A stretch of DNA of 64,000 nt, from the NCBI GenBank assembly GCA_963082975.1, contig OY720344.1, positions 16,913,580-16,977,579 on the forward strand. The letters are read 5' to 3'. The translations under genes and the position numbers were made by a program. The notes below the pieces were generated by a model, which saw only the letters and a program-made list of their open reading frames with translations, ran no database searches and was not told the DNA's origin. This document shows, piece after piece, positions 21,092 through 25,591 of the stretch (the stretch's first letter is position 1; the number at the start of each line of letters is the position of its first letter). The stretch is from Labia minor (lineage: Eukaryota > Arthropoda > Insecta > Dermaptera > Spongiphoridae).

Positions 21092-24000
21092 ATGTTGAAC
21101 GCCACACGAGTTTTTGGACGAAAAGTCTACAATTTTCCAAATATCACACAAGATATTGCATCTAAACAATATTATCATTCATTATTTCAAAAGGTAACCA
21201 AAAAGATTTGTTCAATTTTACTCTATATCTTAAAAAATTTCAATAGAAGATTTATCTTATTTTGGTTTATATATTTTCCTATTGTTTGAAGTATTTTATT
21301 CTTTTTTTTACCTTTTTTTTTTGATTATTTGACTAATATATTTTTACAAACCGGCAATTTTCTATTACATAAACACGAGCCAATTTAATAATAAATGAAT
21401 TATATTTAAAAATATATTTTTGAAATTTTCAGACTTCTCTTCCATTATTGGTTTCTCAAAATGGACAAATTCGACACAGGTAATTTATATTATTTAACTA
21501 TTTTTATAATTAAAATAATAATTATATTATTATCAAGGTTTTACTTTTTATTTTAAAAAAATTTTATAAATCAAATGATGCAATATATATTAAAGCACTC
21601 ACAAAAAAAAAAAATTAATATACTAAAATTATTGCATCATTTATTTTATTAACTGTTTGGTTAAACTAAAGATTTTTATAAACATCGTGATTGGTCACTA
21701 TTAATTTAGTTCTTGAGATCAGTCGAATTGATTTTAAATTTTGTTTAAATGCTCTCTGGTTAAAAATATTATATTTTATTATATCATTTATAATTTATAT
21801 TATGCATATAAATAATCCTATTGGCTTTAATTAAGTAAAATTAAATAATATAGAGATTTTAATACCAAATTTCTGAAAACAGACAGTTGAATTATTATAG
21901 TTACTAAAGTCATCAACGGCTCTTAGTCTTACAAATAATCGCTAAAATAATAGTTTTATAGATTTTAATTTTCGATAATTCGTCATGATAATATCTGCCA
22001 TAATTTATAATAATTGGTAAAAATTGCGAATTCTAATGAATTTGAGAAGTTTTTTTTGAAAATCTACTTGTATTTCTTAAAAAATTTACAATTTCAGAAT
22101 AAATTGTGACTTAACTTGCTTTCACTTTATACGTATGTGTTCTATAGTTAAAATAGAAATAAACCCGACCCAAAAATTAGAATTCAGGGTTTCAATAGAA
22201 ATTTAGGTTCTATAAAGATTATTGTAACAAATAAAATCAATTGACCTTTTTTATGTTTGTTATTATGTATGTTAGCAAAAATTAAAACGTAATTTTATCT
22301 TTAATTGAGTAAAAAGTTTTAAATTTCAAGAAATTGTCATTGTAAATAAATTAATTAGTATATTTCAATTGTTAAAGTATTTTCAAGTAAACTTGGATAA
22401 TAGGATGAGTGAAATCAAATAATTAAATATTTTATATCTCCAAAAATAATCAAATCACATTCAGAAATTATCAAAAAAAGAAAAATTCATCATTACTGAG
22501 TATAATTAAACATTAACATTTAATAATTTTCTAAATAAATAAAATTTTATTTTTTAGATCTGAGACAGTTAAAGGAGCTGTTATTGGAATTGATCTTGGT
22601 ACAACCAATTCTTGTGTAGCTGTTATGGAAGGAAAGCAAGCTAAAGTAATTGAAAATTCTGAAGGCTCAAGAACAACTCCTTCTGTAATTGCTTTCACTA
22701 AAGGTCTTTATTAATTAAACGATTTTATTTTCTAAAAATACTTTTAAAAAATTTATGATATCCTATTAATAAAATATTTAATAAAATTTAATTAATTGAG
22801 AGTAACTAAAAAATTTATATTAATAACTTAATGTCAAAAAATATACTTTATAGAAAAATGATTTTATTTTTAATTATTTAGATGGAGAACGTTTAGTTGG
22901 TATGCCAGCCAAAAGACAAGCAGTTACTAATTCAGCAAATACATTCTATGCTACTAAACGTTTAATTGGCAGAAGATTTGATGATGCTGAAGTTAGAAAA
23001 GATATGTATGTATCTTAATTATTGAATTATAATTATTAACAAATATGGTTGCCATTTCTAAGTGTTATTATTTCTTTTTAGGAAAACAGTTTCATATAAA
23101 ATAGTAAAAGCATCAAATGGTGATGCCTGGGTTGAAGGCCCAGATGGAAAACGTTATTCTCCTAGTCAAATAGGAGCCTTTACACTAATGAAAATGAAAG
23201 AAACTGCTGAAGGATATTTGAGTACACCCGTAAAAAATGCTGTAATTACCGTACCTGCCTATTTCAATGATTCTCAACGTCAAGCTACTAAAGATGCTGG
23301 ACAAATTTCTGGTCTTAATGTTTTGAGAGTAATCAACGAACCTACAGCAGCTGCCTTAGCTTATGGAATGGATAAAACCGAAGACAAAATGTAATCATTT
23401 TACAAACTTTTTTTGTCTTTTTTTCTTTTTAAAATGATGCATTTATTTTTCGTCTCTTATTTATTAAAGAAAATGATGAAAAATCCTTTCTGATTAAAGA
23501 ATTATTTTATTTTAATATATATATATATATATTTTGATAAAATTTATTTTATACACAATTTTTTTAATAGAATTGCCGTTTATGATCTTGGTGGAGGAAC
23601 TTTTGATATTTCCATTCTTGAAATTCAAAAGGGTGTTTTTGAAGTAAAATCAACGAATGGAGATACATTCTTAGGAGGCGAAGATTTTGACAATGTTTTA
23701 GTTAATTTCTTAGTAAAGGAATTTAAAAGAGAGGTATTTGATATATTTTAATTAATAATTTTCTAATTTCTTTTAAAACAAATTATTTTATTTTGTCTTT
23801 CTAGCAAGGAATTGATGTAACAAAAGATCCAATGGCAATGCAACGTTTAAAAGAAGCAGCAGAAAAAGCAAAAATTGAACTTTCATCATCTCTTCAGACC
23901 GATATTAATTTGCCTTATCTTACAATGGATTCTTCAGGACCCAAGCATATGAACTTAAAAGTATATATATATATATAATTTAATTAATTATTCTCTCATT

Positions 24001-25591
24001 TTTAATTATTTTTATTATTTTAGTTAACCCGATCTAAATTTGAAAATCTTGTTGGCGATTTAGTAAAAAAAACCATTTCACCATGTCAGAAAGCTTTACA
24101 AGATGCTGAAGTAAATAAAAGTGAAATTGGAGAAGTATTATTAGTAGGAGGAATGACACGTATGCCTAAGGTATATCTTTATTTCATTATACTTTAATTA
24201 TATATACTTTTTTATTGACTACTAATAATGAATTATTAAATTTACAAGGTTCAATCTACAGTCCAAGAGATTTTTGGAAGACAACCTAGCAAAGCTGTAA
24301 ATCCTGATGAAGCAGTTGCAGTGGGAGCAGCAGTCCAAGGTGGAGTTCTTGCAGGAGATGTTACTGATGTTCTTCTTTTAGATGTGACTCCTCTATCTCT
24401 TGGTATTGAAACACTTGGAGGTGTTTTCACTAGGCTTATTTCTCGTAATACTACTATTCCAACAAAGAAGAGCCAGGTAAATATAATTATCAAATCTCTA
24501 AGTTGTCTAATTTTTGATTAATATTATTTTAAATTAATTTATACTAAAAAAATGATGATTTTATTTTTCGTCTCTTATTGAAAATGATGAAAAAACTTTC
24601 TGATTATATTAATTAATATTTTTTTTGTTTATCTCACTAGATATTAGTTGGATTTTGACAACTATAATTACTTTAATATTTAGCCTTGATCCTTTTTAAG
24701 AATTAAATATATTTTGATATAATAAATATTAATTTTTAAATATATTAACAATGTCAAATCTCTTATTTTAATTAAATTTAAATAAAAAATCCAACTAAAC
24801 ATATTTTTTTAAGGTATTTTCGACAGCTGCTGATGGTCAAACTCAAGTAGAAATCAAAGTTCATCAAGGTGAACGTGAAATGGCGTCAGACAATAAATTA
24901 TTAGGACAATTCACATTAGTTGGAATTCCACCTGCTCCTCGAGGTGTACCTCAAATTGAAGTAACCTTTGACATAGATGCTAATGGAATTGTTCACGTAT
25001 CCGCACGCGACAAAGGCACAGGCAAAGAACAACAAATTGTAATCCAATCATCCGGTGGATTAAGTAAAGATGAAATTGAAAATATGGTAAAGAATGCTGA
25101 ACAATACGCTGTTGAGGATAAAGTAAAAAAAGACAGAGTAGAAGCTGTCAATCAAGCTGAAGGCATTTTACACGATACAGAATCTAAAATGGAAGAATTT
25201 AAAGAACAATTACCCAAAGAAGAGGTTAGTTGATTTATAATTAATCGTTATTATTATTTATTAAATAATATATTCATAATTTTTAGTGCGATAAATTAAG
25301 AGATGAAATTACAAAATTAAAAGAAAAATTAGCAAATAAGGATAGTATCAATCCAGAAGACTTAAGGAAAGAAACAAGTACTTTGCAACAATCTTCACTT
25401 AAGCTATTTGAAGCTGCCTACAAAAAGGTTATTATTCTCTCTTGAAATTAAACTCAAATAATATGATTGAATTAATTATTTGATTTTTATTATAGATGGC
25501 AGCAGAGAGAGATTCTTCTTCAGGTTCTAGCAGTTCTAGTTCAGAACAATCCACTGATGAATCAAAATCGAAAAAAGAAGAGAAAAATTAG
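21092..25591 (+). CDS. HSPA9: Mitochondrial HSP70, mortalin/GRP75 (HSPA9, Hsc70-5)
   Basis: Mitochondrial-matrix HSP70: motor of the TIM23 import machinery and a chaperone for folding and Fe-S cluster assembly. Exons: 21092-21193, 21433-21479, 22558-22703, 22882-23005, 23082-23390, 23571-23733, 23805-23960, 24024-24170, 24249-24476, 24814-25224, 25287-25427, 25496-25591 (TAG). The sum is exactly 690 codons, 689 residues, against 679 in human. An N-terminal Arg/Lys-containing leader of about 50 residues looks like a mitochondrial transit peptide. HSP70 signatures are intact: [37 protein letters not shown] and [15 protein letters not shown]. The substrate-binding domain ([20 protein letters not shown]) and helical lid follow. 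The C-terminus is Ser-rich and Lys/Glu-rich, without the cytosolic EEVD or ER KDEL tail, confirming the mitochondrial subtype. Two introns carry snoRNA-like sequences. Confidence 0.97.
21480..22557. other. HSPA9 intron 2, no gene seen
   Basis: About 1.1 kb of A/T-rich intron. It is the longest intron of the gene and I see no element in it. Confidence 0.6.
23428..23500 (+). ncRNA. Candidate box C/D snoRNA, copy 1 (HSPA9 intron 5)
   Basis: C-like box ATGATGC (23434-23440), internal C' box ATGATGA (23473-23479) and D box CTGA (23490-23493). A possible short terminal stem is formed by TTTAA before the C box and TTAAA after the D box. The segment between C and C' contains TTATTTTTCGTCTCTTATT, found unchanged in the copy in a later intron, although neutral intron sequence around both has diverged. 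That is the pattern expected of a snoRNA antisense element. Vertebrate HSPA9 also hosts a box C/D snoRNA (SNORD63). The target is not identified. Confidence 0.6.
24545..24610 (+). ncRNA. Candidate box C/D snoRNA, copy 2 (HSPA9 intron 9)
   Basis: Better boxes than copy 1: C box ATGATGA (24552-24558), C' box ATGATGA (24584-24590), D box CTGA (24600-24603), and a possible D' TTGA (24579-24582). It shares the TTATTTTTCGTCTCTTATT core and the AAAATGATGAAAAA...CTTTCTGATTA end with copy 1. If TTGA is D', the guide lies just upstream and the methylated base would be the A within UAAGAGACG of the target. The terminal stem is weak. Confidence 0.62.

Follow-up and report, generated by a model that had tools for sequence, protein, structure and literature searches.

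The stretch of DNA analysed here (the window) comprises 64 kb of contig OY720344.1 of the dermapteran Labia minor, with a G+C content of 24%, and it contains a complete gene for a mitochondrial Hsp70 (HSPA9/mortalin-like), two introns of which very probably encode sister copies of a box C/D small nucleolar RNA (snoRNA). The gene has 12 exons and 11 GT-AG introns, leaving an open frame of 2070 nucleotides (nt) for a product of 689 amino acids (aa), and in a search of solved structures the best PDB match of this product was 'Stress-70 protein, mitochondrial' (1127 bits, residues 55-684). The two introns in question, both on the + strand and both starting with GT and ending with AG, are intron 5 (23391..23570; 180 nt), across which the exon chain keeps the 689-aa frame open, and intron 9 (24477..24813; 337 nt). 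Introns 4, 6, 7, 8, 10, and 11 of the same gene are short (76, 71, 63, 78, 62, and 68 nt), and we count the greater length of introns 5 and 9 in favour of the snoRNA interpretation.

Two copies of one block in HSPA9

Introns 5 and 9 share one block of ~60-70 nt, which we call copy A in intron 5 and copy B in intron 9. The local alignment of the two introns scored 87, beyond the maximum of 77 obtained in 2000 dinucleotide shuffles (mean 37.5, standard deviation 6.3), and the longest run identical in both is 20 nt, while the flanks of the copies are unrelated. A first reading of these letters, made without database searches (the sequence-only reading), had placed a block of about 65 bases common to the two introns at these positions and had described the rest of both introns as unrelated, and both statements hold. 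It had also singled out an unchanged core of 19 bases. In fact, this core occurs just twice in the 64 kb when both strands are considered, and these are the two blocks. The copies have the same boxes and the same guide, except that box C ends in C in copy A (ATGATGC) and in A in copy B (ATGATGA); the spacing between D' and C' is 7 nt longer in copy A and the stretch from C' to D differs slightly between them.

No third copy was found in the window with a sequence model built from the two rows (the third of its 5 hits had an E value of 0.13). When block A was searched against the genome of the window's species (604 Mb, 71 contigs, E <= 1), the reported matches were the block itself (100%) and copy B (83%) and none else, a result that is no proof of rarity because the search ignores very common words and scores the best candidates alone. 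The dispersal of the blocks as a generic repeat, which the sequence-only reading had named among the outcomes that would speak against its proposal, was not what the genome search reported.

Box architecture of the copies

In both blocks a box C lies near the 5' end and a box D near the 3' end, with internal D' and C' boxes, in the order C-D'-C'-D that characterizes box C/D RNAs; the ordered ATGATG[A/C], ATGATGA, and CTGA of the sequence-only reading are thus confirmed as C, C', and D. All of the following features are on the + strand. Copy A, together with its candidate terminal-stem flanks, extends over 23423..23501, with a computed stem of 6 bp (23423-23428 / 23496-23501); an alternative stem, drawn by hand, has 7 bp including one G-U pair (23426-23432 / 23494-23500). 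Its box C is ATGATGC (23434..23440; one mismatch to RUGAUGA), followed by the guide TTATTTTTCGTC (23443..23454), box D' CTTA (23456..23459; one mismatch to CTGA), box C' ATGATGA (23473..23479), and box D CTGA (23490..23493). Copy B with its flanks extends over 24540..24608 and has a computed terminal stem of 4 bp alone (24540-24543 / 24605-24608); its boxes are C ATGATGA (24552..24558), D' CTTA (24574..24577; again one mismatch to CTGA), C' ATGATGA (24584..24590), and D CTGA (24600..24603), and the guide at 24561..24572 is identical to that of copy A.

With strict spacing, the order C-C'-D is present on the + strand of the window at these two places, and it did not appear in any of 100 shuffled pairs of strands. 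On the - strand there are four overlapping matches at one place (~19616-19730 in + coordinates), which corresponds to an acidic coding repeat in an open reading frame (ORF) at 17959-20466. This ORF spans 835 codons, contains acidic repeats, and lies just upstream of HSPA9 on the opposite strand, and it is its GAT repeats that produce the C-C'-D matches; it looks like NOM1. We also noticed by eye a perfect 13-nt inverted repeat in HSPA9 intron 2 (21573-21585 / 21630-21642; AAATGATGCAATA / TATTGCATCATTT) with an A-rich loop between its arms, and an ATGATGC inside this repeat mimics a C box.

Without score thresholds, most of the Rfam matches listed for the blocks belong to C/D families, 25 of 29 for block A and 36 of 39 for block B, and these C/D matches are all on the + strand, an enrichment that leans largely on the boxes and is hence not independent of the box evidence. 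No listed match comes near the gathering score of its family, and these results fit a C/D snoRNA that the Rfam library does not cover.

Predicted pairing with 18S ribosomal RNA

When the blocks were paired without interruption to a 937-nt fragment of a eukaryotic 18S ribosomal RNA (rRNA), the top score was that of the guide TTATTTTTCGTC with GACGAAAAATAA, a duplex of 12 Watson-Crick pairs that ends 1 nt upstream of the D'-like CUUA. Furthermore, this duplex (-13.6 kcal/mol) is the best among the 20-nt windows of the fragment. The query, L001 (1-937, - strand), is the first 937 nt of the 18S of another eukaryote, not of the window's species, and the paired stretch is at its positions 474-485. 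L001 is located on contig PIVK01000085.1, which is filed as a Rhodospirillales metagenome-assembled genome, suggesting eukaryotic contamination; in the viral_contigs collection, an 18S pattern had no match. As the GACGAAAAATAA stretch belongs to a published universal eukaryote 18S primer, according to the available passages of PMC7004997 and PMC5055339, it is very likely present in the 18S of the window's species too.

At least 12 Watson-Crick pairs were reached in 1 of 1000 comparisons of copy A with shuffled 18S and in none of 1000 for copy B. When the 64 kb were scanned blindly on both strands for a C box, a D box, and 10 nt complementary to the 937-nt 18S fragment placed 0-3 nt before a D- or D'-like box, the two blocks alone were returned, in six lines that are three overlapping 10-mers of TTATTTTTCGTC for each block. 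A guide formed by CGUCUCUUAU, with a D' further downstream, was also considered and rejected, as no pairing across CGUCUCUUAU was among the best eight of each block and the blind scan gave TTATTTTTCGTC alone. The sequence-only reading had called the 19-base core antisense, and an 18S target for it has indeed been found, but the guide is just the 12 nt before D'; the remainder of the 19 bases consists of the D' box and its neighbours.

Regarding the base that would be modified, the available parts of PMC5612246 state that the binding sites of SNORD11, SNORD56, and SNORD70 overlap in this 18S region, that C517 lies within a 9-nt 18S stretch beginning at T514, and that nt 19-29 of SNORD56 pair with a copy of that stretch. 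Once T514 is placed in GTAGTGACG, the final two letters of GACG become human C517 and G518, and the guide duplex covers both. In this register, the chicken 18S sites C423, A429, A445, G470, and A473 (available passages of PMC2653536) and the human positions 462, 468, 484, 512, and 517 (PMC11542601, in a portion where the column heads are absent) fall on fitting letters of L001 when counted by hand. A duplex placed at human G509, the SNORD11 site, was dropped because the text on T514 and C517 and the chicken spacings fit the C517/G518 register. The fifth base from D' is opposite G518 if the box is CUUA and opposite C517 if it is UUAU, one base later. As D' boxes are often imperfect, the target could be either C517 or G518. 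A fly snoRNA name 'Me18S-G475', for which no confirmation was found, would denote the equivalent of G518. Human U56 is directed at C517 of the 18S (Cm517) and has an Arabidopsis counterpart, AtU56, according to the accessible passages of PMC3511168 (also PMC11542601). This site is not named in the available text of the fly paper PMC13228274, nor is there anything on it in the available passages of PMC8522698, PMC8393311, and PMC2780460.

Interpretation and alternative explanations

With a probability of roughly 0.86, the blocks represent two box C/D snoRNA genes, paralogues of each other, encoded in introns of HSPA9, whose guide is directed at the C517/G518 stretch of the 18S and whose action would be SNORD56-like; judging from the sequence, the pair very probably guides methylation of the small ribosomal RNA. 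The basis for this is the location in host introns, the order of the boxes, the duplicated and unchanged guide, the 12-bp complementarity to the 18S of another eukaryote, and the report of no further copy in the genome. An intronic box C/D snoRNA duplicated within its host was also what the sequence-only reading had proposed, and the alignment, the box-order shuffles, the 18S target, the genome search, and the blind scan all support it. We infer expression, processing, protein binding, methylation, and the exact base from general knowledge of the family. According to this, each intron, once spliced out and debranched, would yield an RNA of ~55-75 nt, and exonucleases would trim it while the C/D proteins (15.5K/Snu13, Nop56, Nop58, and fibrillarin) shield it. 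The 12-nt guide upstream of D' would then pair with the conserved 18S GACGAAAAATAA, and fibrillarin would 2'-O-methylate the 18S nucleotide facing the fifth guide base from D', that is G518 with D' CUUA or C517 with D' UUAU.

Several observations weigh against this interpretation. The D' box (CTTA) is imperfect when compared with CUGA and, taken as CUUA, it points to G518, one base off the known C517 site. The terminal stems are not exceptional either, since that of copy A (-3.4 kcal/mol) is equalled by 21% of 1476 local flank pairs and that of copy B (-0.1 kcal/mol) by 84% of them. The guide is able to pair with the C' region of its own RNA (UUUUUCGUC/GAUGAAAAA) in both copies (23443-23485 and 24561-24597), so that the free RNA could hide its guide; a guide complementary to its own C' region implies that this region resembles the 18S target. 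The pairing scan covered the first 937 nt of the 18S of another eukaryote alone. Runs of 12 nt also arise by chance in this A/T-rich window, in 9 of 9104 sampled + strand 32-mers (51 reach 11; blocks excluded); among the + strand 32-mers from 20500-28000, none of 7260 reaches 12 and 44 reach 11 (blocks likewise excluded). The Rfam scan of the window at gathering level gave no matches, and RF00275 (SNORD56) is absent from the weak Rfam matches (E <= 10) of both A and B. Finally, HSPA9 introns 1-3 are also long (239, 1078, and 178 nt) and are without such a block.

Among the alternatives, the one that survives best, although we consider it doubtful, is that copy A works alone, having the better terminal stem, and copy B is a decaying duplicate. 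The weak stem of B (-0.1 versus -3.4 kcal/mol) is consistent with this idea, as unstable stems mark C/D copies without expression according to the available part of PMC12309372, and so is the distance from the end of the D box to the 3' splice site, which is 210 nt in B and 77 nt in A. However, the C box of copy B (ATGATGA) is the better of the two, its guide and its D', C', and D boxes are those of copy A, and none of its boxes is broken. Much less probable is that the blocks are no snoRNA and instead represent a regulatory element of the intron or a conserved hairpin, in which the core would pair with the downstream GATGAAAAA. A hairpin of ~9 bp can indeed be formed in both copies, but they do not fold with unusual energy (z -1.0 and -0.85), and a hairpin would not account for the conserved 5' ATGATG, CTTATT, and CTGA, which correspond to the C, D', and D boxes.

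The sequence-only reading had further put forward that human HSPA9 hosts SNORD63 and that the host relationship may be ancient, in which case the blocks would be orthologues of SNORD63 that have stayed in HSPA9 from the last ancestor shared with vertebrates. The host is right for vertebrates, since the available passages of PMC2653536 place U63 in HSPA9 (intron 11 in chicken), guiding a 28S adenosine (A4026 in chicken), and block A has a weak Rfam match to this family (19.5 bits, with an E value of 0.1 when 86 bases were searched and of 1.8 when 1501 were). Nevertheless, the gathering score of the family (RF00154) is 43, SNORD16 scores higher on block A (20.9), and SNORD63 is unlisted among the Rfam matches of block B. 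The match of A consists mostly of AAUGAUGCAUUU plus the boxes and is clearest in box C with the CAUUU that follows, and the CAACACAUCAUU that precedes CUGA in the Rfam SNORD63 consensus, which we take to be the SNORD63 guide, is absent from both blocks. Moreover, the guide described here pairs with the 18S (the 28S being outside the scan) and its introns are 5 and 9. As both the Rfam score and the target differ, we rejected SNORD63 orthology, which is very improbable, and we judge the common host to be a coincidence or a matter of host-gene suitability. Least credible of all is a mobile-repeat fragment or a chance A/T-rich similarity, for which one could invoke the low G+C content and a genome search that ignores very common words, but the alignment score exceeds all 2000 shuffles and just two matches were reported in 604 Mb.

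Among the closest known counterparts of the proposed snoRNA pair is SNORD56/U56 (RF00275), a box C/D RNA that likewise has its guide in the 5' half and pairs with the same 18S stretch across C517; NOP56 is among its listed hosts, whereas the window pair is in HSPA9. It differs in that the blocks have no RF00275 match, are two copies in one gene, and have their best D' register at G518 and not at C517. Because of the missing RF00275 match, we liken the blocks to U56 in function and do not place them in its family. SNORD63/U63 is a box C/D RNA of the same host with a different target (28S A4026) and a different intron (11), both in chicken, and its consensus between C and D' is unlike that of the blocks. 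SNORD11 and SNORD70 (human 18S G509 and A512) have an overlapping 18S binding region, with targets 5-9 nt upstream of that of the window guide; HBII-234 is the same as SNORD70, and the chicken guides for these two sites resemble the window pair in being duplicated within a single host. It is common for a C/D snoRNA to have duplicates in separate introns of the same host. According to the available parts of PMC2653536, 28 snoRNAs of chicken are duplicated, giving 67 paralogs. These include two copies for each of the G470 and A473 guides, in different introns of NOP5/58, and three copies of U14, in introns 5, 6, and 8 of HSPA8; U14 is thus also a multi-copy C/D snoRNA of an Hsp70-family gene, although its guide and its Hsp70 gene are others.

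Elsewhere in the window, ORFs recognized by eye are cuticle-protein-like (50189-50869, + strand), which fits an arthropod, LIN54-like with CXC (28926-30059, - strand), and CNBP-like with a zinc knuckle (54679-55143, - strand).

The novelty of the pair is modest and resides in the host gene and possibly in the target base. For two snoRNA copies that Rfam does not recognise, a likely target can now be named. The pair also suggests that the snoRNAs housed by HSPA9 can differ from lineage to lineage, an argument for host-gene suitability over shared descent. A tentative and rather unlikely history would be that a deeply conserved C517 guide moved from a nucleolar-protein gene to HSPA9, was duplicated there, and had its D' shifted by one base, so that G518 would be methylated instead of C517. 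If G518 were truly the methylated base, this would be a clean natural case of an rRNA mark shifted by a single base.

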